64,000 nucleotides of DNA from Lepisosteus oculatus (Eukaryota; Chordata; Actinopteri; Semionotiformes; Lepisosteidae). Shown piece after piece: positions 719 through 63,954 of the stretch. The stretch is taken from contig NC_090716.1 of NCBI RefSeq assembly GCF_040954835.1, positions 8,572,775-8,636,774 of the forward strand, read 5' to 3'. Within the stretch, counting starts at the first letter, position 1, and each line of letters starts with the position of its first letter. A program made the position numbers and the translations under genes. A model generated the notes under the pieces. It worked only from the letters and a program-made list of their open reading frames with translations. It was not told the origin of the DNA and searched no databases.

Positions 719-3700
719 GTGGACTTCCGTTACAAGGAGACCTCCAATGGGTCCTGCAACCATGAGCACAGCTGGAACTGCCAGAATGGAGACTGTGGGG
801 AGGTTGTTGATGCTGCAGTTGTGGATGTAGCCAGGGATACTAACCTTGGGCAATGGTGCCAATCAGAAGGATACATATTAAGAAACCTCTCAAGCGATAA
901 GCCATTTGAATTGAGGTAAGCAGATCCTGAAAATGTAAAAAAAACAAAGAATTTTCATTATGGCGAACTAGTTGAAGGGCATTTTTATTTTGAACATACT
1001 AATTTACCAAACTCTAGAATCTGGTAACAAATCAATTATCATAGATAGCCTGTCTATTAAAGTCAATTACATTGATTCAAATGTTTGATGATGAACAGAT
1101 TTATAGAGAATATTTCTAGGAACAAGCACTCGTATTACTGAATGCAGCATTATTTCTTTTCCGACTGAAATAGGGCTGCAGACTGCTGCTGGATCCCTAA
1201 TGTTCTTGGAACATCAAACTGGCAGCTGCTGACTCATGTGGATATGGGAAATCGATCTGATTCAAGTCTGCTCAATAGATCTCCAGTTACCACAATGCTA
1301 TCGGCGATCAGGTCTGTGACATTTTTAAGGAACTTGTAGCCGGCTATAATGCCGGCAGGAATGCAGGTAGTCACTGAGGAAGAAACGTGGATAAATGTGC
1401 AGGCTCTGGCATAAATTAATGTAGGACCCACTACTCTATATTTCAGAAGTCAGGTGTATTGGAGTTTAATCTTCTTTGTGTTATGTTTATTAGGAATGCA
1501 CGCCTTGATTAGTAAAGATCAAGCATCTACACTGTAGATTACAGTATATGGGCAGAACATCCAGCGCTTCTGGCATAAAAACTTTTTCATAGCAAATATA
1601 CAAGTACCCGCAGATGCATTCTCATGACTATCTTCAATACGGTCAGCTCCTTGATTGTACCTGTAATGCCAATGAAACAACTACTTAATGACTTATTGGT
1701 GTCTGCATTAAACAAGTGGGCCTTGGACTGGTGACAATACATGGCAGCCTCTTTCCTTACTTTTTTCTTGGGGGGGAATACATGTACCATTACAATTCTC
1801 ATGTAAACCTCATAGTAAGTAGAAGCACAAAAATGTAACCGAAAAAAAAATACAGGGTGAAATAGCATGGACTTTAAAACAATTAAAATAATCGTGGCAG
1901 AGTAGGGAAGGAAACCAATCTGACCCCAGAATGGAAAAGAAACACAGTTTTATTGACCTAAAAGTGTACTGTCAAACCCCTTGTTTTCTGTTTAATACCA
2001 ATATAATATTGATGAGAAACATCTTGAAAAATGGATATTACTCTCATCACACTCTATCATCAAGTTCCCTTTTAAAATCACTCACAATTGTATCCTTAAG
2101 ATTGACACTTAATGCACAAGTTGGATGCTGTAGAATATTTAAATACAATATTTTAAAAAGTATAGAGAGTAGCTGCTGCAAAGTCATCAACAGTCCGTAA
2201 CATGTTTCTTTGTGTGTTTTGAAGAGTACCCCAGAACTGTATGACAACTATCAGGCTGCTGGCCCATGATCCCGACGGTGATCATGTCCATTGCAGGTTT
2301 GGGCAAGCAGCCAGCGGAGAGTGTGCATCATGTTCCCAAAACCCCGCCTTCCGCCTGAGTGAGGTAATATCCACAGCTCGGACAGCTTCATGGGAAAACG
2401 CAATGTTGGTGCAATGGTGAACTCATACTGTTAGTGGTTTCATAACTAAATCACTTCAGTGAAGTGAACAGCGGCTGTTGGATGTTCTTGAATGTGTTGA
2501 AATGAGTAATCCCCTGTAGCATAAAAGTGGCAGAATTTGTTTTTTTAATAAAAGGATGGCGTATCATTGTTAGATTGATAATTGCTACCTCAATTAGATG
2601 TTTTTGGAAAATAGCCACATGAAGACAGAGCTGATTAAGTCAGGTGTGAATGCTTGCTGTATATATTAATATATCAATATTAAAATAATTGTTTCCTACA
2701 AATAATCTCCTCCTCAGCTGCCAATTAAAAATTAATTTAATGTTCTAACTGATTTTCTTTTTCAGAATATGTGTACTTTGCATATTATAAACACTACAAG
2801 CATTGGTGCTCATGTATTTGAGCTGGTAATTGAGGATTTCCCAAAGCAAATGATATCCCTAACATATGAAGATGGGACCTCATCTGTCAGGCTCCCCTTT
2901 TCCCAAAACACAGACAACAACACTGCTGCACTCAGTAAATTGCCTTTGCAATTTGCCATAGAGAGTAAGTGTTCTGTGTAAATTTAATTCACAATGGTTT
3001 TATACCTCAGAAAAAGGTATTCAAAGGCACATGCATGTAAAATCAACATACATTTGGCTGTGATAAACCATTTCATAGTGCTAGAAAGCAGAGCTGTCTA
3101 TAGTGAGATGTATTTTTTGTTAAACAGCCACAGATAACTGTATTATCCTTACAAGTACTCCATAATATTAATGTGTCCTATAATTCATGGCAACTCTTTC
3201 TTGCTTTTAGAAGTACCCTAACCCTAATAGATACATTTACATGTATTATTCTTTACTGCACTGTATTGCAGTTCTTCCACCTCTGTCTACCTGTGACCTT
3301 GGGATTTTGATACCACAGTTTCTACCTCCGACACCATCTCACGGTGACATGTTTCATGTCACAGCTGGCCAGGAGTTTCAGTTTCATGTCAAAGCTCAAG
3401 CCACACAGGGAATGTAAGCCTATTTAATGTCTTAATGTTTGATGTCTAGCATAAGCCTTTGGTGTTTGGAAGAATAAAAATTATGTATGTATAGGTGATG
3501 TTATTCCTCTTTCCTTTAAGCCATTCATATAAAATGTTGTGATATTATGATCATTATATTTCTTGCATATAGAAATGTATAAGAATGCATCTGTCTATAT
3601 TAGGGATGAATTAAATATTGTACATACCAGAATCTGTTTTCTGAGTGTGGTTTATTTTTCCTTTTTTGAAAAAAAAGGATCTATGACTTCCAGATCAGTG

Positions 3701-6700
3701 GCCCACCAAACCTAATAAAACACGTTTATAACAACACCAGTGGAATCCTACAGGCAAGGATAAGTTGGATGCCAGAGGAAAGAGAATTATATCACCGCAT
3801 CCCCATTTGCTATGCTGCGGAAACAACCGAGAGGTACAATATGTCTCCTGTAGATAAGCTTCTGTTTTTATTTTTCTGTATATTGTGTTGTATTAAAAAT
3901 GCCTAATGATTATTCTCTTTGACATTTTGCAGTCAGTCTGAAATGAGATGCATAATAGTAGCTGTTGAAAGATTCCATTCACGTTCTGGTAAGATTATTA
4001 GTAGTTGTAGTCATGATAGTAGTATTATACAGTATGTCAAAGTAAAGGCTGTAGCTGGTTTAATGATGTTATAATTTTCATTAACATTATTTTAGCCTGA
4101 AGACAGCTCAGTTTAATGGAATTAACTGTATACATATCAATATTGTATAACAATTTGCATTACTGTATATTCAGTATTTATCCTGTAATTGTGTTAATGA
4201 GTTAATATTACTACATTTAAACAGTATATAGTATTATGTAGTCATTAATGCCTTTTAAGCTTAATAAATATTGATGTTTTTATTCATCAGGTGAAGCTGA
4301 CGTTGTATGCACTGAGAACACTATGACCATTTCTCTGAACAAGTCGTCAATTAGAGGACTTCATGAAAGTCACTTACGCCTTAATGACCCATCGTGTACA
4401 TTGACATCTAATGAATCTCATGTATTGGCAACTGTGTCACTAAACTCATGTGGAACACAGCTTGAGGTAGTATTTTAAAATGTATGATATCAATATCTTC
4501 ACAATTTTCACTACATAGTGCATTATTATATACATTTGTAGATATATTTACATTATTCGTTTATACATGTATATATGAAGATCTTACCAGTGTTGGAGAA
4601 TTAGGGTTTTTCTATTGTACGCTCAGTTCATAAGAATTCACAATATGCAGAACACCTGCTACACTATATTACAGCTTTTCTGCCTTTTCTCGTTCTGCAG
4701 GAAACCGCAACTGATCTCACTTTCAAAAATGAAATAGTATCAGTTGACGATATCAGGGATGTGATAACCAGGAAACACCTAATTGCGATACCGTTCACGT
4801 GTACCTACTCAAAGAAGGGTCGTATAACATCCAATTTCAAGAGCCACAAGTCCGCCTATGTGTTCACAGAGGCTGGCTTCGGCAGCTTTGGCTATGTGTT
4901 TGAGTTCTACACCAGCAGTAATTTCAGCGAAATGATCGACCCTAACACTTACCCTCTGGAAGTGGAACTCCAAGACATGCTCTACATTAGCATCCAGGCT
5001 CACTCTTCTCTTGCAAACACTAAGCTCTTTGTGGAGTCCTGCAGGGCATCCCCACATGATGACCCCAATGACTCGATATACTATGACATCATGAAAGATG
5101 GGTAAGGTGTTGGCTTGCTGTATTCTGGAAAGTGTTCAGAAGAGTTAGGACTTTTCAGCAAGAAACATAAGAAAGACTGAATCTGGCAATAAGACGGTGC
5201 TTCTAGGAAGGGATACACACATACAGTATTTCCCTGAATATCTCAGTTTAGAAAAAGTGCCCCTTATAACATTTCAGTATTTTTCTACTGTATTTCTTTT
5301 CCTTCATGGATACAAGAATGTTTAAAACTGCCAGAAGGTTGCATTTTTCAACTACCACAACATAATGTTCAGCAATCTGTTAACTTGTTGTTTTACAGGT
5401 GCATCAAGGATGACACAGTAGTTGTCTATTCACATGATGGAATTGAATTCAGGTTTGGAATGAAGGCTTTCAAATTCATTGGGGATTTTGACCAGGTAAC
5501 ATGAGGTTTTATTCAGGGAAATAGCCTCAATTCTCAATCAAACTGACTGCTTTAGTTAAAACAGATTGAATGTGTCTGTTTCATTGTGGAACAGGTAGAG
5601 CAGGTATTAAATTTAGTCTATATATATATATTAAATTTGTCACAAAATCTGAAGCCTACTGGTGTCCAGTATAAGATCAAATTAATAGTGACCGATTTTC
5701 TGATACACAAAATAAATTAAACTTTCTAAACATTATTTGCTGTGTTTTACTGCATTTCAACTCCCTTTGTATATAGTTATTTTAAGAAGATTTAAGATCT
5801 AAATAACTGAACATATGTTTTAAAGGTGATTTAGCATTACTAAAATAATAAGGCACTTTTTAATAAGGTTGTTTTATGTGCATTTTCCTGGCATTAGGTG
5901 TACATCAGCTGCACTGTGATTCTATGTGATGCTGGAGATGCTGACAGCAGGTGTGCCCAGGGCTGCACTCCGAACTCTGCTCGTCGCAGGAGATCCCTGT
6001 CCTCAGAGACCGAAAGACACTATATTTCCCAAGGACCTCTGTGTGCTGCCAAAGGGGCTCTGGGAAAAAGAGGTAAATAGAACACCATTCAAAGAAGAAG
6101 GTCTAAAGAGTGTCCTAGATAAAGAATTTATATGTTTGTTTGCTTTGGCATTTTATTTTGAAATTTCAAGTACCGTACCCACCAAAATGAATTCTGAAAG
6201 GAATACCTTTGCTGATATGTGAATAAAAAAAGAGAAGACTGTCAGTCAAACACAGCTGTGCTTTATCACTGGAAAAAATAGGTGGTGTTTAATGTAAAGA
6301 CTTTTGTGAAATGTAGGGTAGCATTATTGAAAGTGAAAATGGTTTTGAACTATAAAAATATGACATCAGTACAACTAAGAAGAAAGATAGAGAAATGTGT
6401 TTTCTTCAACTGATCTATATCAAGGGTCTTTGTTTTGCTTTATTTTAAAAGGATATTTAAACCAATTTTAATAGGTTTCTTAAAACTTCCTAATAAGCAG
6501 ATAATTTTAAATATAATTAGAAAGTGTGGCCATTTAAATAAAGTTTTAATGTGCAATGTTTGAGACTGAAAACTGGGCATGTTTTTATGCTGCAATTTCA
6601 TTTCTTAATGGCAATTAAATTGTCTGGTCTCTTCCAGCTTCGAATGTGGTTATGAATACAAGCACCAGAGTCTTTGCAGGAGCTTTTGCTGTTGCTGTCC

Positions 6701-6777
6701 TCCTGCTGTGTGGCGTATTGATCTACAATGTCAAGAGATCCAGGACTGTCAAACAGGAAACCCTTTTATCATTTTAG
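719..6777 (+). CDS. ZP-module type I membrane protein, copy A (5' partial, exons 2-13)
   Basis: Twelve exons join in frame: 719-915, 1174-1311, 2225-2363, 2766-2964, 3272-3413, 3678-3833, 3933-3988, 4291-4466, 4701-5101, 5399-5495, 5898-6072 and 6638-6777 (stop TAG). They give 671 residues without exon 1. Phases and nearly all exon lengths match copies B and C. Exons 2-8 encode a Cys-rich ectodomain including HDPDGDHVHC. Exons 9-12 encode a ZP module, recognisable by NDPSC, SCGTQLE, ITRKH, VESCRASPHDDPND and FGMKAFKF. Exon 12 carries RRRR (5982-5993), a furin-type site where ZP proteins are normally cut. Exon 13 gives a hydrophobic helix (FAGAFAVAVLLLCGVLIY) and a tail ending LLSF. Compared with B and C, exon 5 has almost no linker and the tail lacks their YxxL motif. 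The exon 3 donor (gtctgt) is weak. ZP proteins polymerise outside the cell; the role of this one is unknown. It is the most diverged of the three copies. Confidence 0.85.
5982..5993 (+). other. Furin-type RRRR site after the copy A ZP-C module
   Basis: Codons CGT CGC AGG AGA encode RRRR followed by SLSSE, just after the last ZP cysteines (CAQGC). In ZP-module proteins cleavage at such a site removes the hydrophobic tail and allows polymerisation. That it is cleaved is inferred from the family. Confidence 0.6.
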
Positions 6778-6971
6778 AGTTCATGTGCAAAAGCATGGGC
6801 AACGGGGTGTTGCATTAAAATAGGCTATTAGATAAGCCAAAAAAACATATAAAACGTTTATAAGTTTTAAACTTACATGATTTTTTAACACAAGTATCGG
6901 TTTCCTGGATCTCTTATTGGTTAATTAAAAGTAGCATCTTAATAAGCTTTCTTAGGGGAGATGTCATTATC

Positions 6972-6992
6972 AATAAAATGCAATTTAATAAA
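6972..6992 (+). promoter_or_regulatory. Polyadenylation signals of copy A
   Basis: Two AATAAA hexamers (6972-6977 and 6987-6992) lie about 200 bp after the copy A stop codon. This is a plausible 3' UTR end. Confidence 0.5.
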
Positions 6993-8715: not shown

Positions 8716-8820
8716 TGTTTTAACACATGAAAGTCATATTGAAACTGAAATGAGCATCAGTATGTAGAATGACTGGTAAAACAAACACAGGCACATGAAT
8801 GTACAGTATGCAATGTATAA

Positions 8821-9878
8821 GTAATAGGTTTATTCCATGCTGAAAAGAGAAGAAAGAAAAGGCAACATTTTGGCTATGGAGCCTTCTTCGGGTGTAAGAA
8901 AGATAGGGCAGTCGGCAACGATAATATAGTTTGGGAGAACAAAAGCCAAGAGAGAGGAGGAGGCGGGAGCAGGGTAAAGGCAATCAAGTGGTGCGAGGTC
9001 GAGAGAGGTGAGGAGAGGTGCGAAATGAAACCAACAAATGAATAGAGAGACTTGGAAGAAAACAGGTTTGTCGTTTAGAGAAGGGGAAGGTGTGAACCAA
9101 GTTTCGGGATCATTTTAGTTTCAGATGTCTTTTTGCTATAGGAGTTAAGAAACCCAACTTTGAGAATGCAGATGGAGAGATCAGTGTGATCATGCCTGTT
9201 AGTGGTGAAATGAGAAACTATGGGCTTGGAGAAATCTTTAATCTTCACAGCCCTAACATGTTCTCTGAAGCGCTTTCCGAGCCTCCTTGCTGTTTCCCCA
9301 ATGTAGATGGCTGGGCATTTACTGCAAGAGATACAGTAAATAAGGTTCCTGGAGGTACAAGATGTCATCTGGGTGATCCAGAATTGTCCTGAGGGGCTTT
9401 GAATGACTGTGGTGTTAGATATGTACTTGCAGGTGATGAATCGAGCTCTGTTGCAGGGGAAAGTGCCTGGTGTGGATGATTTCTGAGGGCAGTCAAGGGA
9501 GCTGTGAGCAAGAAGGTTACGCAGATTAGGTGGTCGGCGAAATGAGGTGATGGGGCGGTCAGGAAAGGGCCCCAATGAAGGGATCATCCTGTGAGATAGG
9601 AAAGTTGTCGTTAATGGTTCTTGGTAGAGAGTGTGTTAGGGTGGTAGGGAAGCACCAAAGGAATGTGGTTGTTAGGCTGGGAGTTCCTGATCGAATTGAT
9701 GGTCCGAGGGCTGTTATTGGGTCGGGTGAGGGCCCTATCAATAACACGGGTGGGGTATCCTCTGTTGATGAAAAAAGTGTGCATTTTGAGTGTTTGGTTC
9801 TGGAAATCGATGTAATCACTGCAGAGTCGTCGTCGCCGGAGACCGTAGCTGTCGCTGCCATAGCCGTATGTAATGTAT
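8821..9878 (-). mobile_element. Decayed Penelope-like retroelement with GIY-YIG endonuclease domain
   Basis: On the minus strand, 9075-9587 encodes about 170 residues containing NLIYCISCSKCPAIYIGET and RRLGKRFREH. These are a GIY-YIG nuclease core (YIG, catalytic Arg) preceded by a Cys-rich zinc-knuckle-like stretch, as in Penelope-like elements. Upstream (9559-9861, minus) the connector region is split between frames: PLVLPYHPNT runs in one frame and INDNFPISQDD in another, so at least one frameshift has occurred. The reverse transcriptase core is missing. The left end (8821-8895) has the family's terminal sequence (ggtttattccatgctgaaaa, ggagccttcttc). A one-mismatch repeat gtatg(c/t)aatgtat at 8806-8818 and 9866-9878 may be the target-site duplication. 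Inactive. Confidence 0.8.
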
Positions 9879-11574: not shown

Positions 11575-14500
11575 ATGTCTCTGATTGCACTGGTGGTCTG
11601 CCTGAGCCTGGGCTCCGGTGCCTTTGCCTCCCATTTGCAAGGTGGGATCATGACCTTCAGTCCCAAAGGAAGAAACCCAGACGGGACTTTCAGGGTAAGA
11701 GTTGTGTTTTCAATATCACACTCTATGCATGCAGTAGAATAGCTTTTTATAAGGATCATGGGTGATTTTTATTAATATTCCATCTTTACTCAATACTCTT
11801 GCAAACAGAATGCCAGTCAGACAGCAATTATGGTTTGTATAAGAACACCATTTTATCATATTTTAATTGTATTATTACTAGCAGAGTATAGCATAATACT
11901 GTACTTCATTCAAAAGTGGGAAGGAAAAGAAAATCCACATCTTGGAAGCCTACATTCCAGTTAGACATGGGTTGTTATTACCCAACCTGTTTTTCTTTTG
12001 TATTGCATAAAACAATATGAATATTATAATGTAACAATTGTTGATCACATTTACTTAACACATTAAACAGAAAACATATTTAAATGAAGGGGTGAATGAT
12101 ACTCACTGAACACTGCATTGCAGGTAGATTTTCGGTACAAAGAATCATTTAGAAATGGCTGCCATCAGGAATTTTACTGGCCATGCCGGAGTGGGAACTG
12201 TGGACAAAACACCTATTTTCAATATGGGAAAATAGATGACGACCCATTAGGAGGTGGCTGGTGTCAGGCAGAGGGAGTCATGACCAGAAGCATTGCCAGC
12301 GACAAACCTTTTGAATTGAGGTAAGGAAGTTTTCTCAATTTTAAAAATGACAGAGCAGTATGATGCTATATAATAGGCTGAACTATCACATTTTTCAGTT
12401 TCACTGACATAATTCTTTTATGCATTTGTTTGTATCAATATTACAGTGAGTCAAGCTGTTGCTGGAGCTCTGATTCATACAGTCCTCTCTCTTGGCAACT
12501 TTTGACATATGTCGATCTAGGAACAAGATCGGATACCAGACAACCAAACAGGTCTCCTGTAACTACCCTTCCACCAATAATCCGGTATGGCAATATAGAT
12601 TTTTAAATAATGTGTTTAAATATTGCACTTCACAGAAAAAACTATATAATGTGCATATCTTGATTTAGAGACAAACATTCCTATACTAGGCATAATTAGC
12701 TTTCAGCCAAATCAATCTTCAAATGAGATTACAGATTATAAATGGCATGCACTAGTGCATCTACTTCTGGAAATGCTGCTTAATATTTTTTTAAAACACC
12801 TGCAATCTTATTTTGTGTTTTCAAGAGTACCCCAAAACTGTCCAATAACATACAGATTACTGGCACATGACCCAGATGGAGATCGTGTCAGATGCAGATA
12901 TGGATTTAAGCAAAACTTTGAATGCTATAACTGCAGCCAACATGTAGATTTCCACTTTGATGAGGTAAGTGTCATGGAGAAAAATGATAAATAATGTCTA
13001 GTATTTGTATTTGCTAGCCTCACGCAGTTGTGAGCTGCTTAGTATGTGAACATTTATTTTCGTTTTCTGTCTTAAAATAATTGAATATTCTTTCATTTAT
13101 TTCCTTTCTTCAGCACATGGTTTCATTAGCATACAGTATACTGTATAGAGTGCAGTGTAGCTTTGTGTTCCTAATTAAAGGTAAAACAGGTTTATTCTTT
13201 AACAGTACCATAGTGCTGAAAAGTAATACTGTATATCCTCCAGTTACAAACTATAATATCAAAGATTGTTTAAAGAACATTCCAAGGATATTTGGGGAAT
13301 CTAACAAAAGATACAATTACTGTATTCTTCATTTACAAATATATAATTACATATGATATAAAGTATGAAGGGTAAAATGTGATAAATTAGTAGGGTCAAT
13401 AAGAACAATTGAATGGAGTCATGCACACTGACAAAATATCCTAAAAAGTGCATAAAATGAATCTGATGGGTAAGTCGGTAAGTTTTTTTTAATTATTTCT
13501 TTTGTTCTAATTTTATGAACAGCAGCATGCAGGTAGAATCAGTGGCAACCGAAGATTATTGGAATTTTGTTTGTAACCTCTGTATGAATTCGTTTCCATT
13601 TAGCATTTATCAATTCTGAATTTATAGAAACATGCATATTAATGTTTTTTTGTTTTTGTTGCGGACAAGACGATCTGTCTTACTTTCCCCATGTTGTAAA
13701 GTTAATTCTGAAATGCTGTACAATGGATACTTGTTATGTTATTTTGCTGCCCTGTCAATGTTTTGGGGGCTATTCTTGTGATTCTTTGGAAACTGTACAT
13801 TTATAAGTAAGCACGCATTTTTTCTCCCTTCCAGAATACGTGTGCCATTACATATGTTCGCTCATTGACGAGGGTTCATATCTTTGAGATTGTTATGGAA
13901 GATTTTCCAAGACAGTACATCAGTGTTACCTACAGGGATAACACATCATCAGTCCGATCCCCGTTGCCACTGTCTCGGCGCCGCCGCGCTATCGCAACAC
14001 CTTCACTTACGGATTACCAAACCATTTCCACTACTAAGTACCCACCTACCAGTTCTACGTCTCCCTTGAGCAAAATTCCTTTGCAATTTATTATTCAAGG
14101 TAGGAATTTAAAATATGTGTATTCTCGCTAACCCCTTCCTATACAAATAAGTGAAAGATATATAGTGGAATCATGCTGTTGTACTCTTTGTTTCTTAAGG
14201 ATTTGACAGGCCTTTATGATCAGCCGATCAAATACTTTACTTAATTATAAAAACGATGTACAGTAATGCCTCTCTTATAATTGTGACGTACCAGAGAACA
14301 GAAACGGGCAATTCAGGCAATTCTCAGTCAAATGAAAGCCATTTTAGTATTTGTTACCACACTGTACCTTGCATTTTATCTTCTGATCTTTGATTAATTG
14401 CTATGTGGGGTCCTGTTTGCAAAGTAGTGCATTAAAGATCTTGTTAATTGATACACTCATTGATGGCTTTATAATTTATTTTTCAAAATAAGTTGTACTT

Positions 14501-17500
14501 CCTCAAGAAACAGTGACCAAGGAAAAGAGCTTTAAATTTGAAGCACAACAATCAGGTGTCCGTACACTTCAAAACCTCAGCATGTTTGAACTCCTTAATC
14601 AACAAGTACACATTCAACATCGCTAGCCTTTGGGTTCCTGTAGATGCAGGAAGACTCCCCAAACCTGGACTTGCACTTTTGAGCTTGAACATCCATATAA
14701 GTTAAGGGTGCTAGTGCTCTAAATATTGTCTCATTCCATGTTTGGTCTTTGGGATGTAAACATCTACTGAAATCGTTGGCAGGGAGAACATTAGGACATA
14801 ATTTTGCTGCTGAGTCAATTCATTGACTCAAAAATGGTAATTTGTGGTATTTGTACATTTTATCTGAGCAATCTGAAATGCTTGCACATTTCAGTTTTGA
14901 ACAATACCATGACAATCACCTGACTTAATTTAATCTCTTATGCTGTCATGACAAAAATAATGCAAATACATACCTTGTGTGAAATGCATAAAAGCAGTTT
15001 TTCTTCTGGTTGTACTGCATATATTGGCAACAATTCAACCACAAATGTAAGTTGTGTGTTTTTCACATGAATGTGTTTTTTAAGTCTAGGCACAGAGCAA
15101 ACATTTTTTGTTTTTTTTTCAGTTTTCAAAATACTGAAATTAAACTCAATGTAACTATCTTGCTTTCCCATTGCTGTGTTTCAGTTGATAACGATGTGCC
15201 TTCCTGCACATTTGGAGATTACAGACCCAAGCTCCTGCCTCCCACCCCAGCCCACGGTGCCTTTCTGAATGCTACAGTGGATCATGTATTTGAAATCAGC
15301 GTTAGAGCACAAGCATTCTACTCCGTGTAAGGCATTAAATCACATTTTTCAGAAAACAGTAGAAAAAAAAACATTTCAAATGAAAAAAAACAACATAAAA
15401 ACACAATCAGCTCATAATCTGATCTAACAGGAACTTTAATAAATGTTCTTTACCACATTTATTGACATAATATTGGTTGCCCTACTACTCTAAATTAAAT
15501 AAAATACCACCAAAACTAAATGCATTGCATACTTTTACTATGTATTTAAGATCTTTGCAATTTTCTCCTATAAAGGATTTATGACATCAAGATCAGTGGA
15601 CCTCTGAATATCACAAAGTCATTCCAATATGATGACATCAACAAAACTGGACAAGCGTTCATACAATGGACACCAAATGTGAATGACTTAGATGAGCATG
15701 TTCCTATTTGTTTTATAGCAGAGACCAGAGATGGGTGAGTATGAAATTACCAGTTTAATCTTACAGGGGAAACCTTTCAGGATATTGCTAAGAGCATGCT
15801 GTCACTATATGCTGTCATTTGCCTTATCACTGTGCTGGGAGGGAGGACCACCTAAGCAGACTTCTAATTTCTGTTTTTGCACATATAAATTCAAAATCAG
15901 CAAATAAGTAGTTAAGCAACCCAAGACATGTCATATGTATTACTATCTGAGCCACAGATCCCTGCATTTGACATTCTGTTAAATTTAGCTGCTTATCTCA
16001 ATCAACAAACTTCTATTGGAACAGCAACTGTCACTATCCTTCCTCCTTTTTACATACTTTACTATACTGCCACTTCATTGCAGGAAACATATTTGGGATA
16101 GTTTTGTTTATATAGGGAAAAATACATCAGTTACAAACAAGAGCTCCCACATTGAATTGGGACAACAGTGCCCCTCTATCGAAGTCTTCAGTTAAAAATG
16201 AAATATACTTCTTTGTGACAGACGTAAGCACCTATTTAGTGAACCATAACGACTCTAAATAGTGTCTTTTTGGCAAAATCCAAAGAAGACAAGTTTGAGA
16301 TTCATTACTACTGATTTGTTATTAGTTTATATATTGGCTGATTATAACTGCTTGGACTGTCATGGGTAAATATCAACCTGGTCCAGACGCTGAATACTGG
16401 GAGCCAGTTTAAGGGCTTATGTCTTTCCTCCAATAAATATCCTGTAGATATTAGATATTTAAAGTTAATCACATTAAAGTTTAAAAATGTGAATTAAAAT
16501 TAATACTGTGTATCCCTGCTTATTCAAACTCGTTAGCATATGAACTTTCCCTTAAATACTTTGTTATTCTCCAGTAACAGGAATTCTTTGCAAAAAGTGG
16601 TGAAGCAGGTGGAAGCACAACACAGCAATCACTTATCTGTTGTATCTTATCAGACTTTGTATGTTAAAATTAAATGTGCCTGGCAAGCTGTTAGTTGTAA
16701 TGTGCCAAGATGTTAGGATTAGCAACACAAATGTATGCTGTTTACTACAGTATATTCTTATTTCTCATACATGTCATTAACCACTATTACACAGGTATTT
16801 GTACAGTAGAATAAATTTTTTACAAAAAGAGCGATTTTCTGTTGTATACAGGTCTGTGTTCCCTAGTAGCCATTACAGTGTCCAAGGTAACAGATGTATA
16901 ATATAAGACATATAACACCAGACAGGATGTATAAGACAGTTTGGGATCTCTAATTTATGAGAGGTCTGATGTCACATGCATGGACTTCTGTTGATTTTTT
17001 CTGAATTACTCTTTTCAGGTATCAGTCAGAAGTGAGATGTGTTGTGGTAATTGTTGGAAGAAATTATATTCGCAGTGGTAAATATACAACTTAAAATTAT
17101 AATTATTATTACATAAGGACTTTAACACCGAACATTACCTCCAACACTCCACAGAACATTTTTATTACAACATTTTGTTTATGCTCTTTTCTATCTTAAT
17201 GTATGATCATTTTGATTTAAAACAATTTGATTTAGGAAATGTAAAACAATGTTAAATAACTGTGAGTAACAGCTGTGTAAAATTTAAAATATCATAAATG
17301 GCAGCATGCTTGACTATAGCAAGTTCATCTCTAATTTTAAAAATAAAAATTTCAGCACATATATAAATATTTTAAAATTATTTTCTTTCCAATTTAAATC
17401 AAACAGGTGAAGCTGAAATTGAATGCACTGAGAACACCATGAGAATTGCTGTGCTCAAGTCTTCAGTCAGAGGAATTCATGAAAGCCATCTGCGTCTCAA

Positions 17501-19815
17501 TGACCCCTCATGTACGCTGACATCCAACGGCACTCATGTAGTTGCAATAATGTCACTTCACTCCTGTGGAACACAGCTTGAGGTGATGAGTGTTTCTGAT
17601 TCTTTTTCCACATTGTCTTTAAGTTGAACTGAGAAGTTGAGATTTAAATATTTTCTTTTAGTTAGCTATGGACATGTGACCAGGGGAATTTTGAACTGAA
17701 TTATTTTCTTTTTTATGACTCTTGCAGGAAGATCACAAATTTCTTATTTTCAAAAATGAGATTACATCATTTGATAACCTAAATGACATCATAACCAGGA
17801 AGCATCTGGTAGAGATTGGATTCTCTTGCTCCTACCCCAAGACGGGTAACGTGTCTTTCGAGTTCAAAGCACGCAGGATTCCCTACGTGTTCACGGAGTC
17901 TGGCTTCGGCAGGTTCACCTATCAGTTTGAGTTCTTCAGCTCCAATCTGTACAACAGAATGATCGACTCCAGGTCTTACCCAGTGACAGCGGAGCTGCGG
18001 GACATGCTTTATATGGACATTGTGGCGACATCATCTCTTCCCAACACCCAGCTGTTTGTGGAGTCTTGCAGAGCAACTCCTCATGACGACCCCAATGACC
18101 CCGTATTCTACGACATCATCAGAAATGGGTAAGTAAAATAAAATTGGAGGATGAGAGGAACTGTGAGGAAAGACATCTGCCATCTTTCTTGTGTGAAACA
18201 TTGCAGAAGTGTAGGGGAGAGGGTCTCAGTCTCAATGACATCATCAGGACCGGGTAACAAAAGAGATTGTCAGAAATCACTGTCACTGTCTTGGTGTATG
18301 GTGTAATATAAAGTACCTTTACCTTTGTTCTTATTCAGAAAGAAACCTTTGTGGGTTGGTGATTTAAAACAAAACAAAACACATTACAGCAGATACTCAA
18401 AACCTTCCAGAAAAGAGAAGGAGGGCTAATCAGTCAAACTGTGGAGCAAGAAAAAGCACACTGCCGCTAGTTTCCCACTAGCAAAATGTCACCCAGTTGA
18501 TTTCTTTCCAAAAGATGAATTTCTGCTAACAAACACAACCAAGTGCGAATTCATGGAGTCCCAAAATCCACCTAACCTAATCCACCTGGTTGGTTCTCAT
18601 ATAGTACATTTCTACTATACTTTTTATAATTGTTACTTTGTGTAATTTGGAAGCATTCGTAGCACCCATCATATAATACACAAGGATTTTATAAACATAG
18701 TAGCCTCAAATGAAAACACTTTTATGCTCTAAAAATGGTTGAATGTGACCTCCCTACAATTTTGAAAGTAATAGTAGCTTTGTTTTCTAGATGTCTTCTG
18801 GATAATACACTTCAGGTCTTTCCAAGCAACAGGACAGAGTACAGGTTTGGAATGGAAGCTTTTGCCTTCATCGGCCAGTATGAAGAGGTCAGAAAGACTC
18901 ATGAAGATCTCATGAACTTTGTTTTTATAATACCACTATCATAAGTTCTCGTCTAAAGTCAGAATTTTAAGATGAAGTTAATCTTCTATTAGTCTATATT
19001 CTATCCTTTCTTTAATCCAAAAGATAGGATTTAAAAGTACATTATTCAGTTTACAGCAATATATTTTTGTCTTTATGTTTAAAATGTGTTTTCAATAATG
19101 TTTAAAAGTTAAGTAATTTTCACTGTTGTTCAGTGCTGTCTGTGCCCTTGTGTGATTTAAGGTTTACATCAGCTGCATGGTCATCTTGTGCCAGGCTGGC
19201 AACCCCTACACCAGGTGTGCCCAGGGATGTACCAATGGGACTTCCATCTATGATGGGCATCACCTTCAAAAAAGAGATTTGGTTTCACAGACTGCAAGAC
19301 ACTACATTTCCCAGGGACCTGTTCGTCTAGCCAGGAGCTCAGGAAGTGCAGGTAAATTTGTATAAAGACTTTAAGAGCTTCGGTTATAATTGAGTAGTGT
19401 TAAGAGTGAGTCGATCTTGTCTTTTTGATGCATAATGCATAATCAAAGATCGAGATATACTAGGAGAATTCACAGTATACCTGTGAAATATACCACAGTG
19501 GAAAAGCAAAATATCCGGTGTAAAATATAATGAGTGCAAATATGTGAAAGATCTATCAGAGAGTCCCAACTGTTGTAACAATGAAAATATTTCCTTTTGA
19601 GATGTAGTTTTGAAAATGTAGCTTTGATAAATAATTAATTTCATCAAACCAATTCTTACCCGTTTTTTTCAGTATCCCAAGTGAATCTGAGCCCCAACAT
19701 AGTTTTTGTTGCTGGGACTCTCCTGGCTGCCATTGGCCTTCTGTGTGGAGTGGTCATCTATAAAGCCAAGATCTCAAAGGTCCAATACAAAGCTCTTCCG
19801 ACTGCAGACCTCTGA
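11575..19815 (+). CDS. ZP-module type I membrane protein, copy B (complete, 13 exons)
   Basis: Exons: 11575-11694, 12124-12320, 12447-12584, 12826-12964, 13835-14099, 15185-15326, 15576-15734, 17019-17077, 17407-17582, 17728-18128, 18791-18887, 19162-19351 and 19673-19815 (stop TGA). Total 2226 nt, 741 aa. Residues 1-18 form a signal peptide (MSLIALVVCLSLGSGAFA); the mature chain starts SHLQGG. Residues 19-150 are a Cys-rich domain (GCHQEFYWPC, SCCW). Residues about 152-286 include HDPDGDRVRC and a Ser/Thr linker with RRRR. Residues 287-406 are a further extracellular domain (EVRCVV). The ZP module runs from Cys413 to about Cys654 (NDPSC, SCGTQLE, ITRKH, VESCRATPHDDPND). A dibasic QKR follows at 667-669. 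The transmembrane helix is about 704-724, and the tail has YKAL at 733-736. The exon 11 donor (gtcaga) is non-consensus. The N-terminal part resembles, from memory, invertebrate extracellular proteins starting HFRGG. Probable extracellular polymer-forming glycoprotein; function unknown. Confidence 0.88.
13976..13987 (+). other. RRRR processing site in the copy B exon 5 linker
   Basis: CGG CGC CGC CGC encodes RRRR followed by AIA, inside a Ser/Thr-rich linker well before the ZP module. It is a good furin-type site. Copy A has no site here; copy C has only RSIR at the equivalent place. Cleavage here would split the N-terminal domain from the ZP part. Confidence 0.55.
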
Positions 19816-22612: not shown

Positions 22613-22693
22613 CATGATAGGTTTCTAATTAATTAGCCGAGCCATTTTTGAACATGAGCAAATCTAAAGCAGTTCTGTGCAATCTTTTTAGGT

Positions 22694-22935: not shown

Positions 22936-23801
22936 ATCTTTTTAGGTTTCCATGTTTGTGTAAAAAATAAATAAAACACAAATGTATGCTTTGTTAGTGC
23001 AGCCTTTGTTGTTCCTGTTCTTAGTGTTATAAAACCCAGGTGCCCGAGTCTGTCAGGATAACACTTGGAAGCCAATTAAGCTAAACAAATAAGTGGGTTT
23101 ACTTCAAATGAACGGTACCAGTGCTTACTATATGTGTGTCAAATTAGCTTTTCATTTTATGATGAAACACATTCAATGCCATTTTAATAAATGATATGAA
23201 ATAAAGTTTAGTACATTTTTTAGTAACAATAGCATCTCTGATCTTACATTTGGTCATTTTTCATACTAGAAATATTTCATTTAACATTATTAAAATCATT
23301 GATTATGAAACACTTATGATCAATAATAAACTAGAATAATTAAATAACTTAATTGTTTAATGCCAGTCAGCACTTTTGTAATTGGTAATTTTACACATCA
23401 GATCAGGGCAGGGCCTTTCTTCAAAATTGGTGTTGTAGACTTATGGGTCATTAGTACTTGGGTTGCTGTCATTAACAGTAGCAAATGCTCAGATACACTG
23501 GGTGTGTTTGTGCATTCCAGTCCTAGCCCTAATCTCTAGCCTACCTCATCAATACACACTGCAGAACATAGCAATAGTTGACTAGCCAACAATAATAACA
23601 TAAACCCAACAAACGTTTTTTTTTATGTGGCATCTTTCTGACACCTTTTTTAACTCTTGCTACATAACAACTTTGACATAAATTAAGCAAGAACTCATCA
23701 ATTGTTTGCTGTATATCATGTTTGATTAACTTCCTCATTTTTCCTTTTTAACTCCTATTGTGTTAGTGACAGGTGACTTCACTGGTATTTGTTTCCATCG
23801 T

Positions 23802-23810
23802 CTATATAAG
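23802..23810 (+). promoter_or_regulatory. TATA box of copy C
   Basis: ctatataag is a consensus TATA box about 60 bp upstream of the ATG at 23868. The surrounding sequence (gacttcactggtattTgttt, ctttgcatttctgttcac) matches the copy B promoter, supporting a short 5' UTR in both genes. Confidence 0.65.
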
Positions 23811-23867
23811 ACACTGTCCCTGTCTTTGCATTTCTGTTCACTGCGGTGAAATAACTACAGTGTTACA

Positions 23868-26800
23868 ATGTCTGCCTTTGCACTGGTGGTCTGCCTGAGC
23901 CTGGGCTCCAGTGCCTTTGCCTCCCATTTGCAAGGTGGGATCATGACCTTCAGTCCCAAAGGAAGAAACCCAGACGGGACTTTCAGGGTAAGAGTTGTGT
24001 TTTCAATATTGGACTGTATAGTGGTTATTGAAAATACTTTTATAGTGGAAAATATCTAATATTTTAATTGCATTTCTTCATCCTGTTTAATCTGTACTTA
24101 ATGCTCAACTGACTTGCACAATGTGTTCTTTCCATTCCATTTTGGCAGGAAGAAAAACCAAAAAGATAAATTACTCCTAATTAAAATACACTGTAATAGT
24201 GCTGACCACAGCAATGTCTGATTCTTGTGAACTAAAGAAAACACTGAGTCAATCATGATCTAAAGGTGTACAATTGTTTTTGCAAGTACCTGTGTTACTG
24301 GTCTGAATAAAGCTATTTTAAAAATGCAAAAGGAATTGTGTGTTTATATGGATATATGACAAATCATTTCAGAAATAAGTAAAGGGGAAAAAATCCTTAT
24401 TATTATAATAGGCTTTCACTACTGGGAAGTGTTAATACAAGATGGACACAAAAAAAGTGCTGATCCTGTCTCTTGTTTTTGAATTTTATGAAACCATAAT
24501 GAATATCTTGATGTGGTAATTATAACTCAAATTATTAACAAATTAGCAAAACTGAATTACAGGTAGACATTCGGTACAAAGAATCCTTTAGAACTGGCTG
24601 CCATCAGGAATTTTACTGGCCATGCCGTAGTGGGAACTGTGGACAAAACACCCATTTTCAATATGGGAAAATAGATGACGACCCATTAGGAGCTGGCTGG
24701 TGTCAGGCAGAGGGAGTCATGACCAGAAGCATTGCCAGTGACAAACCTTTTGAACTGAGGTAAGGAAGTTTTCTCAGTTTTACAAGTGACATAGTAATGT
24801 AATAGGCTGAATGTATTTTTTCAGTTACAAAAAAAATATTTCTTTTTTTGCATTTGTTTGTTTCAATATTACAGTGAGTCAAGCTGTTGCTGGATCTATG
24901 ATTCATACGATACTCCCTCTTGGCAACTTTTGACATATGTTGATCTGGGAACAAGATCGGACACCAGACAACCAAACAGGTCTCCAGTAACTACCCTTCC
25001 ACCAGTAATCAGGTATGGCAATATAGATTGTTTATATATTGTACTCCTGTGTCTTGAGAAGCATTTTGAGATTAAAGATAAATCATGCCTTGTACTAATG
25101 CATTGTATGAAATATAACTTGCTTTAAAATTACCTGCTGTCTTATTTTGTGTTTATCAGAGTCCCCCGAAACTGTCCAATAACATACAGATTACTGGCAC
25201 ATGACCCAGATGGAGATCATGTCAGATGCAGATATGGATTGAGGTCAAACTCGGAATGCTATTCCTGCAACACACATCCAGATTTCAGCCTTGATGAAGT
25301 AAGGTTAAAAGAACCATAGAGTAATGAATCATGACATACACATACAGCAAAGGGTTCTAGAAACAACATATACTTCGGGAATAAACAAAAAGCTCTACAT
25401 ACCACTTAACAGACTCCCCCAAAGAGCACGACTTCATGACTTCACAAAACAGACAATGGGTGAAATTAAAAAATCATTTACCTTTGTTTTAATGAAAATA
25501 TTGCTCAACATCCCTGTTTCTATACTGTATTCATGAAGAACTTAAAATTTTAAATTCAGATTTTAAAACTTTAGATTTATGAATCAGCTCGATAAGCTTA
25601 TTTGTATGTTTAATTTTCTTATTCTAATTTAGAAATTATCTGATAGTATCCACTAACAACAAATGCTTTTGCAATTGCTTATATAATAAATTATATTGCA
25701 ATAATATTTTTTTTCATATTAAAGCGCTTATTTAACTCAGCTTTCATGCAAAAGTCCCAGCTGTCTGTAATATTTTCAATATACTGAATTAGTATATATT
25801 TACCATATATGCATATTTTTATCATGTAAATCCATGGGTCAAAAACAGGTTAATTTTTCCAGTGTTTTGAACTTGCTGTATATGTGTATGTAACCACAGT
25901 TTCTGCTTTTTCCAGAATACATGTACCTTATCGTACCACTACTCATTAAAGACGAATCATCTGTTTGAAATCGTGCTGGAGGATTTTCCAAGGCAGTATG
26001 TTAGTTTAACGTACACAGATGGCACATCGTCCGGCAGATCGCCCTTGGTCCCACACCGTTCTATCCGTTCTATCGGGGGAGGTTCTACGTCACCCTCTCT
26101 GCCTCCCACAGCAGCCTCAAACTGGGGGTGGTGGTTTCCATTGACAACACCTGAACCTACTACGACCACTGAACCTACTACCACAGCAGCCTCAAACTGG
26201 GGGTGGTGGTTTCCATTGACAACACCTGAACCTACTACGACCACTGAACCTACTACCACAGCAGCCTATAACTGGTGGTGGTGGTTTCCAGCAACAACAC
26301 AAGCACCTACTACGACCACTGAACCTACTACCACAGCAGCCTCAAACTGGTGGTGGTGGTTTCCAGCAACAACACAAGCACCTACTACTACCCCTGAACC
26401 TACTACCACAGCAGCCTCAAACTGGGGGTGGTGGTTTCCAGCAACAACACAAGCACCTACTACTACCCCTGAACCTACTACCACAGCAGCCTCAAACTGG
26501 GGGTGGTGGCCTACAACAACCACACCATCCCCAACTACTACAACCACACCATACTCCCGTTCCCTTCTCAGTCCGCCCCTGAGTAAGATTCCTTTACAAT
26601 TTGTTGTTCAAGGTATGTATTTCCAAACCCTTTCCTTAAATTAGAACAAATAAATTAGAATTAAGACAAATAGTCCATTATTTTCTATGGAACTATTTCA
26701 TGTAGGGTAGTGGGTTCATTCTCTTTTTTTTTTTACTTCAGTCTGAATGCAAGGAGAAACAAAACTTCATACTTGGCCAATGACAATGACGGGGGGGACC

Positions 26801-29800
26801 TGTAGTCATCTGCCATTGTGTTAATTGAAACACAACAAAAATCTCTGACAAGAATTTGTTGTTGTCAGACATACAGACGTGTTCTTTATTCTGTAATCAC
26901 GGTATACTTATCTTTATCGTAAGGGGTCAATACACAACTCTTTTGTTTTGAAAAATAATGCAATTGTTTTTTTAGCTCAATGTATTTTCATTTAGATCTA
27001 ACTTTGAAGTTGAGGTTAATTTTAGATTTCTTGTTTTCCGTTGATTTCAGTTGATAACGATGTGCCTTCCTGCACATTTGGAGATTACAGACCCAAGCTC
27101 CTGTCTCCCACCCCAGCCCACGGTGCCTTTCTGAATGCCTCCGTGGATCATGAGTTTGAAATCAGCATTAGAGCACAAGCAAACTACACAACGTAAGACA
27201 TTATGTCTATTTTGTTTATGAAACAGGAAGGCAGTTCAAATTTGTGAAACAATACCCTTGAGTTGTCTCACGCCCCAGCACCTCTGCTCTGTTAAGTACT
27301 AAATGCCCTTTAACCTTTACAGAGCTTGGGGTATGTCAAAAGGGAAAAGGATTGAGGCTCAGTGGAACCTACAGTATTTGCTCATCCTCATTCCCACTGT
27401 TGGTAGAGAAGCCAGTGGTTTGAACCACTATGTAAGAATCAATTGGCAGTTCTAGATTGCAATTGTCAATTGTAGATATTTGTGTTCATCAACACCACAG
27501 GATATCAATCTTTTAACTAAGCAAACTGAGAGACTCGTTCGTGATTCTTTTGTCACCCCATAAAATCAATTATTCCAAATCATGGTTTCTGTGGCTGTTC
27601 AGAACAGCTTGCAAACAATGTGGAATTTTAAAGGGGACTGTAATAGCAACTTTTGAACATTTATGAATGTCTGTTAGGATGCTTAAAATAAAAAAAAAAA
27701 ATAAATATCAAAGCTCTTTATTTACATATTTATTTAATCTTCCAAAGGATATATGACATCAAGATCAGTGGGCCTCTGAATATAACAAAGTCATTCCAAT
27801 ATGACCAAAGATCCAGAATCGGACAAGCATTCATAAAATGGACTCCAACTGAAAATGACTTAAATGATCATGTGCCCATTTGTTTTACTGCAGAGACCAC
27901 AGATGGGTGAGTAAGAGATTAACTATCACTACACACAGTACATACGTTTGCCATGTTATTATTATTATTAATGTTATTATTATATTTTATTATTATTCAA
28001 CATAATCAGTTATTGAAGGTAATTTAAAAAGTGCTAAGGTTAATGTTAATTTTAAATGCTAATTTTAAATTCATTTCATTAACTGATCTCTTTAGATACC
28101 AGTCTGAACTGAGATGTGTTGTTGTCTTTGTTGGAAGAAATCAAATAAGCGCTGGTGAGTACTGTTATTGGAGAAAGCAAAAGGATTTGTGGCAATACAT
28201 ATAGTACCATAGCCGAAATGAGGGCATACTTTCAAGTGGTACTTTTAAATTTCTTTTCTTTTATGTCAGAAAAAATGGTTGTATATATTAATGTTAAAAT
28301 ACATCGTATTGTAAATATCACACTAACAAAAAATAGTTCAATCCACAAGTTCAATTTGCAATTATTTTTTTATTCAATGTGTTTGATGGAAGATAATGAA
28401 TATCTTGTTTTCCAAAGTGAAATTACATCATATGATACTGCACAGTGGTGTTTACAAATAAAATTTGCATTGAACAGGTGAAGCTGACATTGAATGCACT
28501 GAGAACACCATGAAAATTGCTGTGCTCAAGTCTTCAGTCAGAGGAATTCATGAAAGCCATTTACGTCTCAATGACCCCTCATGTACACTGACTTCCAACG
28601 ACACTCATGTAGTTGCAATAATGTCACTTCACTCCTGTGGAACACAGCTTGAGGTAATTACTGTTTCTGATCTTTTTTCCCAAATACAGTGTCTCTCAGT
28701 TAGCATAAAGAAAGTACAATTTTGAAACAGAATATAAATTATTTTACATCATCTAAAATGTTTCCAACTTTTATTGCAGCACCTTTATTTCAAGCACCTT
28801 ATTGCTTCAGAAACATTTCTAATAAACAGTCTAATTATTTTTGTATTCATTATATTTTCAGGAAGATTCCGAATATCTTATTTTCAAAAATGAGATTACA
28901 TCATTTGATAACCTAAACGACATCATAACCAGGAAGCATCTGGTAGAGATTGGATTCTCTTGCTCCTACCCCAAGATGGGTAACGTGTCCTTCGAGTTCA
29001 AAGCGCACAAGATTCCCTACGTGTTCACGGAGTCTGGCTTCGGCAGGTTCACCTATCAGTTTGAGCTCTTCAGCTCCGATCTGTACAACAGAATGATCGA
29101 CTCCAGGTCTTACCCAGTGACAGTCGAACTGCAGCAGATGATTTACATGGACATTGTGGCGACATCATCTCTTCCCAACACCCAGCTGTTTGTGGAGTCT
29201 TGCAGAGCGACTCCTCATGACGACCCCAATGACCCCGTATTCTACGACATCATCAGAAATGGGTAAGCAAATAAAATTGGAGGTTGAGAGGAACTGTGAG
29301 GAAAGACGTCTGCAATCTTTCCTGTGTGAAACATTGCAGAAGTGTAGAGGAGAGGGTCTCAGGGATGTTCCTGGGAGCCCCATGCCTTTCTGTTGCTTCG
29401 CTCTAGCCGAGTCCTTAATCACAGGCTTCTAGATTCACATTGTTATGTTGAGCCTTCTTTAAATTGGAGGTCATGGTTCTTCCCAAACAGAATAGTTGCT
29501 CTCTTCAGATAAGGGGTAAGCAGCTGCTCTTGGAGGTCGAGTTTAATTGCCTCAGGAAGTTGAAAGGGCTGGTAGAGTGGAGCACGAGAACATCAGCAGA
29601 ATAGCTCTGCATCGGCTGTGTTGCCAGTCCATTGTTGTGAAGCAAGAGCTGAGCTCTATGTCAAAACTCTCGAGTTACTGGATAATCATACAGTACATTC
29701 CTCACCTATGCATAGCTGGGGAAGGGTCCAATTGTTGAACCAACACCTGTGTGAGCAGATTCTGTAATGGAGCAATTCGTAAATTTCATTCCAAAAAATT

Positions 29801-31341
29801 CTGCTGCCATTTTGTTTTATTATATGGTCAGAGGCTGGTTAAGCAAATCACATCTTGTTTCTCCTTTTCATTTATTTGTAGATTGTGTGGTATAAAAACC
29901 ATAATTGTGATTAATTTAATATAAAAACATATTTGCTTTGTATTTTTAGGTGTGTTCAAGATAGCACAGTTCAGGTCTTCCCGAGTAACCAGACAGAGTA
30001 CAGGTTTGGAATGGAAGCTTTTGCCTTCATTGGCCAATTTGAAGAGGTAAGAAAGACAATCACATTTATAGCACAACAGTATATTGAATTGAATATATTG
30101 AAATATACAGATTGAGATGAAAAGATCTTACCTTGATGTCAATGTAATTTAAAAAGCTAATGGAAGACAAGAAAAATAATGACTATTAAGATTCCAAAAA
30201 TGTTTTGAATGAAAACAGATGTTACCATATCTAAATATTTATTCCCGCTGTATGTTGTTAATGTACGTTTAAGTGATTTTCATACTTACAGTAATTATAC
30301 AATGAAAGACAATAAAAAAGAGGTTAAGTAAAATACAATACATTTTCATAAGTCAAAAATACCTCTTAAAGAAAAAAGCACATGATGTAAATGCACCTTT
30401 TGTAACTTTTTTCAACTGAGTTTTTCAGGTATTCTTTTTGATATTTCACTGTTATTCAGTACCGTCTATGCCCTTGTGTGATTTAAGGTTTACATCAGCT
30501 GCACAGTCATCTTGTGCCAGGCTGGCAACCCCTACACCAGGTGTGCCCAGGGCTGTACCAATGGCACTTCCAATTCTCATGGGCATCACCTTCACAGGAG
30601 AGCAGTGGCTTCACAGACTGCCAGACACTACATTTCCCAGGGGCCTGTGCGCCTAACCAGGAGCACTGGCAGTGCAGGTAACTTTGGATATGAACTAAAA
30701 GAATCAGTTAAAAAGTCGCTTCAGTGAGAACTTCATTATTTTGTTTAAAAAAAAGTGCAAAACATGGGATGAAAGTATGGTTAGATTCAACCTCACAGTA
30801 TTCATAAACTACTGTACAAACAAAATCTTGTGAGGTAATTTTTCGGTTTGAAATATACTGAAAATAAAGATTTGGAGGTGTTGCAGCTTTTCCTGTAAAG
30901 GCTGTTTCCCATTCTGCATTGACAAAAGCTTACAGTATGTATAATGTATAGGTGTGTCTAATTCTGTGTCTGGAGAGCCAGTTTATCTACAGGATTTCTG
31001 TGTTTCTTTAAAGCACCAGCATGGGACAAGTTCTTGAGACCAGTAATAAGCTGATCTGCTAATAATGCAGCTAATGATTAATGATTAATAATCATTAAGA
31101 GCTGAACTGGAATAAAGTTGCAAAAACACCAGGACTGCATATTCCTGACATAAGATTCAAATTTAAAGCACCATTTATCCCCCTTTTTGCAGCCTCCAGT
31201 TTGAACCTGAACCTGAACCTGAATGTTGTGTTCATCATGGGGACTCTCCTGATTGCACTTGTCCTTGTGTGTGGAACAGTTGTCTACAAAGCCAGGGTGT
31301 CAAGGGTCAGATATGAAGTCCTGCCCACATCCGACTTCTAA
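23868..31341 (+). CDS. ZP-module type I membrane protein, copy C (complete, 13 exons)
   Basis: Exons: 23868-23987, 24563-24759, 24875-25012, 25160-25298, 25916-26612, 27051-27192, 27748-27906, 28096-28154, 28478-28653, 28862-29262, 29950-30046, 30488-30677 and 31193-31341 (stop TAA). Total 2664 nt, 887 aa. The signal peptide (MSAFALVVCLSLGSSAFA) and SHLQGG start match copy B. Phases and all exon lengths except exons 5 and 13 equal those of B. Exon 5 is 697 nt, against 265 in B, because of a 75-bp in-frame tandem repeat encoding Trp-rich and Thr/Pro-rich units (residues about 262-387). The ZP module starts at Cys557. The later dibasic site is HRR. The transmembrane helix is about 850-870, and the tail has YEVL at 879-882. 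Exons 9 and 10 are almost identical to those of B. An orphan exon-10 fragment lies in intron 8. Predicted extracellular, membrane-anchored, heavily O-glycosylated in the repeat; function unknown. Confidence 0.88.
26106..26510 (+). repeat. 75-bp coding tandem repeat in copy C exon 5
   Basis: Units start at 26106, 26181, 26256, 26331 and 26406 (five full 75-bp units), with a partial sixth at 26481. Each encodes 25 residues: TAASNWGWWFP or a variant (NWWWWFP), then a Thr/Pro tract such as TTTTEPTT. The period is exact and a multiple of three, so unit number can change without a frameshift. Neighbouring units share variants (GWWFPLTTPEP in the first two, FPATTQAP in the later ones), which suggests slippage or unequal exchange. 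Thr/Pro runs are typical of mucin-type O-glycosylation. Confidence 0.92.
27955..28003 (+). repeat. TTA-rich microsatellite in copy C intron 7
   Basis: Imperfect (tta)n tract in the intron between exons 7 and 8. No function is suggested. Confidence 0.7.
28389..28443 (+). pseudogene. Orphan partial exon-10 copy inside copy C intron 8
   Basis: This stretch begins gaagataatgaatatcttgt and continues ttccaa…gaaattacatcat. It aligns base for base with the start of exon 10 (28862: gaagattccgaatatcttat). It would encode EDNEYLVFQSEITSYD, against EDSEYLIFKNEITSFD in the real exon. It lies upstream of exon 9, out of order, and stops after about 55 bp with no exon-10 donor. It is best explained as a relic of unequal crossing-over or a small rearrangement. 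Confidence 0.75.
29560..29740 (+). mobile_element. LINE reverse-transcriptase C-terminal fragment in copy C intron 10
   Basis: The frame reads RVEHENISRIA…CQSIVVKQELSSMSKLS. From memory this resembles the region after the reverse transcriptase of a common fish LINE (pattern VEHEI…RSVVVKKELSRKAKLSIYRSIY). It is decayed by substitutions and frameshifts. The LINE clade is uncertain. Confidence 0.45.

Positions 31342-41712: not shown

Positions 41713-63954
<22,242 letters not shown>

Follow-up and report, generated by a model that had tools for sequence, protein, structure and literature searches.

Tandem ZP-module genes with an undescribed ectodomain in Lepisosteus oculatus as candidate filament-forming extracellular proteins

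A 64,000-nucleotide stretch of the Lepisosteus oculatus genome (hereafter the window; C21:8572775-8636774, contig NC_090716.1) carries, at positions 719-31341, three head-to-tail genes (A, B, and C) in which an N-terminal ectodomain precedes a ZP module. What kind of protein do these genes encode, and what would the combination do? We consider it probable (about two chances in three) that four tandem paralogues and a distant fifth gene, E, encode ZP-module extracellular proteins, made as membrane-anchored precursors that would be cleaved and then polymerised through the ZP module, with the N-terminal part displayed as filament branches. Negative coordinates below lie upstream of the window start.

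Gene structure of the array

We located exons by all-against-all comparison of reading frames and set their boundaries from splice sites. In the models of A, B, and C, every internal exon boundary follows the AG acceptor/GT donor rule, and all frames are intact. B (741 amino acids) and C (887 amino acids) are both complete with 13 exons. Twelve exons of A lie inside the window (671 amino acids); its exon 1, which encodes the leader and the motif HMQGG, sits just upstream at -211..-92 and brings the model to 13 exons and 711 amino acids. All are on the + strand.

Gene A exons 2 to 5: 719-915, 1174-1311, 2225-2363, 2766-2964; + strand; gene model
Gene A exons 6 to 9: 3272-3413, 3678-3833, 3933-3988, 4291-4466; + strand; gene model
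Gene A exons 10 to 13: 4701-5101, 5399-5495, 5898-6072, 6638-6777; + strand; gene model (visible span 719..6777)
Gene B exons 1 to 5: 11575-11694, 12124-12320, 12447-12584, 12826-12964, 13835-14099; + strand; gene model
Gene B exons 6 to 9: 15185-15326, 15576-15734, 17019-17077, 17407-17582; + strand; gene model
Gene B exons 10 to 13: 17728-18128, 18791-18887, 19162-19351, 19673-19815; + strand; gene model (whole gene 11575..19815)
Gene C exons 1 to 5: 23868-23987, 24563-24759, 24875-25012, 25160-25298, 25916-26612; + strand; gene model
Gene C exons 6 to 9: 27051-27192, 27748-27906, 28096-28154, 28478-28653; + strand; gene model
Gene C exons 10 to 13: 28862-29262, 29950-30046, 30488-30677, 31193-31341; + strand; gene model (whole gene 23868..31341)

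A preliminary description of this stretch had reported three tandem genes. That number is right for the window, but the array has four: gene D (13 exons, 710 amino acids) lies beyond the left window edge, with exons at -13184..-5200 (C21:8559590-8567574). Intron phases after exons 1 to 12 are the same in D, A, B, and C at all 12 positions (0,2,2,0,1,2,2,1,0,2,0,1). These phases and the gene models confirm the head-to-tail paralogues, shared 13-exon plan, intact frames, and protein lengths given for B and C in that description. Exon 5 (A, 199 nt; B, 265 nt; C, 697 nt; D, 178 nt) explains most of the length variation. Within the flanks examined (50 kb to the left of the window and 30 kb to its right), tblastn with A and B at an E value of ≤0.01 found no copy beyond D and A exon 1. 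With intact frames and GT-AG introns in all four, D, A, B, and C are, judged from their sequences, real genes.

The ZP module

Both ZP domains of B exceeded the curated Pfam cut-offs (ZP-N, 1.2e-15; ZP-C, 5.6e-28). The scores of D and A were similar to those of B, and E was weaker and still above the cut-off, so the ZP module that had been proposed for the family is present in these four, with no credible Pfam domain besides ZP-N and ZP-C. For C, the module is seen in the genome search, in which its ZP-C exon was above the cut-off (C21:8601813-8602043), and in exons 9 to 12, which share 84 to 96% DNA identity with those of B. All ten ZP cysteines (four in ZP-N, six in ZP-C) are cysteine in all five members. 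On domains and cysteines, then, these are predicted ZP-module proteins.

Among PDB sequences, the best phmmer matches to B were GP2 (4.2e-20) and uromodulin (9e-20), followed by weaker matches to TGFBR3 (2.2e-7), ZP2 (2.4e-7), and choriogenin H (0.006). Within that set, the ZP module is closest to the UMOD/GP2 type. The N-terminal domains do not place the proteins in the UMOD/GP2 family, with no EGF or D8C Pfam match in B (E value ≤10) or in D, A, and E (E value ≤1). The layout of B is as follows.

Gene B exons 1 to 5: 11575..14099; + strand; leader, SHLQGG start, Cys-rich region (CCW, NRSPVTT, AHDPDGD), and PLSKIPLQF segment at the end
Gene B exons 6 to 8: 15185..17077; + strand; third ectodomain segment, residues ~284-403, without a family match
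Gene B exons 9 to 12: 17407..19351; + strand; ZP-N (residues 413-502) and ZP-C (525-650), then basic region and RHYISQGPV
Gene B exon 13: 19673..19815; + strand; hydrophobic membrane helix and short basic tail

The C-terminal region and leader

After the last ZP cysteine, the array genes encode basic residues, the motif RHYISQGP[VL], a membrane helix, and a short basic tail, in that order. The motif and the hydrophobic helix are found in all four, and A has a full RxxR (RRRR) before RHYISQGP. At the N-terminus, the leader is clearly hydrophobic in B and C, where hydropathy is above the 1.6 cut-off; in A and D it was judged by eye. Both the C-terminal membrane helix and the signal peptides of B and C had been anticipated in the preliminary description.

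The N-terminal ectodomain

The ectodomain is ~385 residues long, and 14 of its cysteines are common to D, A, B, C, and E. Thirteen of these columns come from the alignment; for the 14th (B C53), the aligner misplaced a gap in E, and the residue is found at exon-2 position 13 in B and E alike.

We found no credible relative of this region in the libraries scanned, in keeping with the earlier view that it is not an ordinary named domain. When four ectodomains were scanned against Pfam, that of B had no match at an E value of ≤10, and the other three had only unrelated weak matches (E values 0.12, 0.13, and 3.8, each in one of the four). NCBIfam (scanned with B only) gave nothing, and ectodomain profiles built from four and five members had no match among PDB sequences at an E value of ≤10. 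Two weak family matches were disregarded, one to Tobravirus_2B in B (E value 0.18) and one to a PHROG in one of the five members (E value 0.25). When the three ectodomain segments, ZP-N, and ZP-C were compared with one another, all 10 profile pairs had a probability of ≤0.3%; at the sequence level, therefore, no additional ZP-N repeat can be recognised in the ectodomain. By eye, segments two (AHDPDGD...) and three (IYDIKISGP...W.P...VPICF.AET) resemble immunoglobulin (Ig)-like or cadherin-like beta-sandwiches. The linkers between segments vary, with a furin-like RRRR in B and a mucin-like Trp/Thr-rich repeat in C.

Gene C exon 5 tandem repeat: 26106..26509; + strand; 75-bp unit in 5.4 copies with 95% matches; codes for a Trp/Thr/Pro-rich linker built of a 25-residue repeat (AASNWGWWFP...TTTTEPTTT)

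Searches of open-licence PMC papers by title and abstract returned no description of such an ectodomain; a text search of the same literature for HFRGG returned unrelated subjects only, and six related motifs found nothing. As the preliminary description proposed, the ectodomain may resemble extracellular proteins of lancelets, molluscs, and cnidarians; we assume that an HFRGG start and the motifs CCW, NRSP, DPDGD, and IPLQF occur in the same order in predicted proteins of these animals. Viral contigs scanned for the ectodomain pattern yielded 77 and 74 stretches, with no relative among them. Among 64 stretches with the pattern in genome contigs, one, on a Corynebacterium contig, passed tblastn; this candidate prokaryotic relative was rejected as spurious, as it contains internal stops and overlaps other long frames.

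A distant fifth member

Searching the genome with the B ectodomain gave at least 31 matches among the best candidates scored. Of these, 28 fall within the array and one at C21:182532; the remaining two are weak (E values 1.1 and 3). Gene E is a diverged gene around C21:182532, ~8.4 Mb from the array on the same contig. We assembled its exons 2 to 12, choosing boundaries by eye with the array genes as a guide, into 603 residues with no stop codon. Exon 1 was not found around C21:182532, and a candidate exon 13 came only from a scan for acceptors. The intron phases of E (2,2,0,1,2,2,1,0,2,0,1) agree with those of the array genes at 11 of 11 positions, and its ectodomain is 32% identical to that of B (linkers shortened). 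The shared phases and cysteines argue for an old origin of the family, as had been suggested.

Neither weak match was accepted as a member. The match on C9 (E value 3 genome-wide, 2.7e-4 in a small database) has two internal stops, neither CCW nor the cysteine after it is present, and no family sequence was seen downstream by eye; the match on C19 (E value 1.1) gave nothing at an E value of ≤1 in the same small database. At the E locus (C21:181854-192087), a reverse-transcriptase-like frame, presumably a LINE-type (long interspersed element) insertion, lies between exons 6 and 7. About 5 kb from E is a transaldolase-like frame (Pfam TAL_FSA, 1.5e-5), whose 25 bits fall under the family cut-off of 27.

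Divergence and probable gene conversion

We estimated nonsynonymous (dN) and synonymous (dS) divergence by NG86. Whole-gene dN/dS is well under 1 in all six array pairs. In the five pairs other than B-C, amino acid identity is 49 to 57%, with dN of 0.34 to 0.43 and dS of 1.6 to 2.1 (near saturation), values that indicate purifying selection and put the shared gene structure beyond chance. The B-C pair is far closer (overall dS 0.32), which indicates that the B/C step is more recent.

Synonymous divergence between B and C is a patchwork: dS is 0.03 to 0.17 in exons 1-4, 6, 9, and 10 and 0.33 to 1.56 in exons 5, 7, 8, and 11-13. DNA identity is broadly parallel (0.86 to 0.96 in the low-dS exons versus 0.66 to 0.88 in the high-dS exons). 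Judged from dS by exon, the pattern is best taken as gene conversion. In B-C, dN exceeds dS in exon 1 (0.046 versus 0.034, 40 codons) and exon 4 (0.18 versus 0.10, 46 codons), which are too few codons to claim positive selection.

Proposed mechanism and alternatives

For uromodulin, it is established that the last ZP-C strand is an external hydrophobic patch that prevents polymerisation for as long as hepsin has not cleaved the RFRS site, and that the filament carries the N-terminal region as branches (PMC7737619, PMC4755741). The best inference is that the array proteins work in a like manner, with polymer formation suggested by the ZP module. The precursor would be a type I membrane protein at the cell surface, and a C-terminal propeptide would keep it inactive; this propeptide includes the RHYISQGPV strand, which we equate with the external hydrophobic patch. 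The basic site ahead of that strand would be cut by a trypsin-like or furin-like protease, and release of the propeptide would let the ZP modules polymerise into filaments. The ectodomain would then project as branches and give specificity, be it for a matrix partner, a microbe, or another ligand, with the variable linkers (RRRR in B, the Trp/Thr-rich repeat in C) serving as spacers between its segments.

Several observations weigh against this model. A full RxxR precedes the patch-like strand only in A, so that one furin-type mechanism common to all array genes is less likely; in B, C, and D only two basic residues stand at that place (KR, RR, and RR, respectively), the RxxR of B and C sits after the strand, and E has no RxxR in the region. 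The phmmer alignments to uromodulin end before the patch, and RHYISQGPV was matched to it by eye. Leader hydropathy is below the cut-off in D and A. Lastly, in four of the six pairs the conservation of ectodomain residues 19-240 (B numbering) falls short of that of the ZP module by 0.08 to 0.10 (for example, 0.50 versus 0.60 in A-B), and conservation is lowest in the Ig-like segment of A (0.40 to 0.41). Residues 19-240 are more conserved than the ZP module in D-B (0.60 versus 0.59) and D-C (0.62 versus 0.57), and their dS is saturated in four of the six pairs, for which no ratio could be given.

The imperfect protease sites of B, C, and D would also fit a non-polymerising membrane receptor or adhesion protein of the TGFBR3 kind, with the ZP module as a scaffold; the membrane helix with its short basic tail, the absence of an obvious glycosylphosphatidylinositol (GPI) signal, and the PDB match to TGFBR3 point the same way. 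We think this unlikely, given that B is much nearer the filament formers GP2 and uromodulin than TGFBR3 and that RHYISQGP[VL] is kept in all four array genes, as expected of a patch that regulates polymerisation. The array might instead encode egg-coat (chorion) proteins, the ZP glycoproteins that make up the egg envelope in fish, and might owe its copies to the expansion common among egg-coat ZP genes. ZP genes are described as diversifying strongly in ray-finned fishes (PMC13361971), and in this genome >100 of the 150 scored ZP-C matches (479 candidates) lie in tandem units on contig C3. The architecture seen in one C3 stretch is different, however, with ZP3-like and trefoil-plus-ZP frames (named by eye), whereas no trefoil match was found in B (E value ≤10) or in D, A, and E (E value ≤1), and the ZP module of B is far nearer GP2 and uromodulin than ZP2 or choriogenin H; an egg-coat role seems distinctly improbable. 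That the array consists mostly of decaying duplicates with little function is hardly credible: B and C seem to exchange sequence, with dN above dS in two short exons, but frames and introns are intact in all four genes and whole-gene dN/dS is low in every pair.

A broader version of the filament model is speculative, and we would sooner doubt than accept it. The ectodomain may be a set of ancient animal domains, so far undescribed, which certain fishes have kept in fusion with a ZP polymeriser of the uromodulin type. The array would then supply a small set of filament-displayed binding modules, diversifying by gene conversion and spacer change, in an epithelial decoy or barrier system absent in mammals.

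Flanking genes and other features

USP47-like frames lie to the right of the array, where the preliminary description had placed USP47. One of the four sent to Pfam matched UCH (56117-56326, E value 8e-9), and the remaining three had no credible Pfam match. Outside the window are a frame with Dickkopf_N to the right and two frames with NAD_binding_4 to the left. From their sequences, we take these neighbors to be USP47, DKK3 (Dickkopf_N), and FAR1 (NAD_binding_4); so read, the flanking frames agree with a vertebrate source.

Two further frames were seen within the array. On the minus strand at 9075-9635, a 186-amino-acid open frame includes a GIY-YIG-like segment, which we assume to be typical of Penelope-like retroelements. 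Upstream of C exon 9, a short frame at 28362-28469 resembles the start of C exon 10 (43% over 42 residues, E value 1.4e-6) and is possibly a relic exon duplicate.

The tandem ZP-C matches on C3 lie at 8.08-9.02 Mb and 12.25-13.26 Mb. In one 10-kb stretch, a unit repeats at 7,979 bp, and ZP3-like and trefoil-plus-ZP frames were recognised by eye. By eye, these repeats look like a large egg-coat-type gene amplification.

Comparison with known systems

Overall, the array seems to encode genuine extracellular filament proteins that have not been described before. Its ectodomain, carried on a ZP platform, has 14 cysteines common to the five paralogues and matches no family in the scanned libraries, which makes it a clear target for structural and expression work. 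Such work could show whether ZP polymers bearing other ectodomains were part of the vertebrate inheritance and disappeared afterwards from some lineages. Should the resemblance to invertebrate proteins be true, the array would open a family of animal proteins that has had little study to work in a vertebrate.

With egg-coat ZP proteins such as choriogenin H and ZP2, the array proteins have the ZP module in common; the match to these is much weaker than to GP2 and uromodulin, and no trefoil was found in B, D, A, and E. With uromodulin and GP2, the array proteins share the type of ZP-N and ZP-C, a predicted membrane-anchored precursor, and an N-terminal region ahead of the module; the basic residues (a full RxxR only in A) and the putative patch after the module would be further points in common. 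In both of those proteins, ZP filaments are described as platforms on which N-terminal branches do the specific work (PMC7737619, PMC8930769). The array proteins differ from them in lacking an EGF or D8C match (B, D, A, and E), in an ectodomain unrelated to the families scanned, and in having a membrane helix with a basic tail in place of a GPI signal. Pirica and XL18 of frogs likewise have a ZP domain resembling that of uromodulin and come from vertebrates other than mammals (PMC2694273). Compared by its description, pirica differs in its length (432 amino acids) and in the absence of the N-terminal EGF region of uromodulin; lacking an N-terminal region in that account, it was rejected as an orthologue of the array genes. 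A skeletal-matrix ZP protein of the coral Acropora, also compared by description, resembles the array proteins in its single ZP module and has a basic cleavage motif before a membrane helix (PMC4890752), comparable to the basic residues before the helix in the array proteins.

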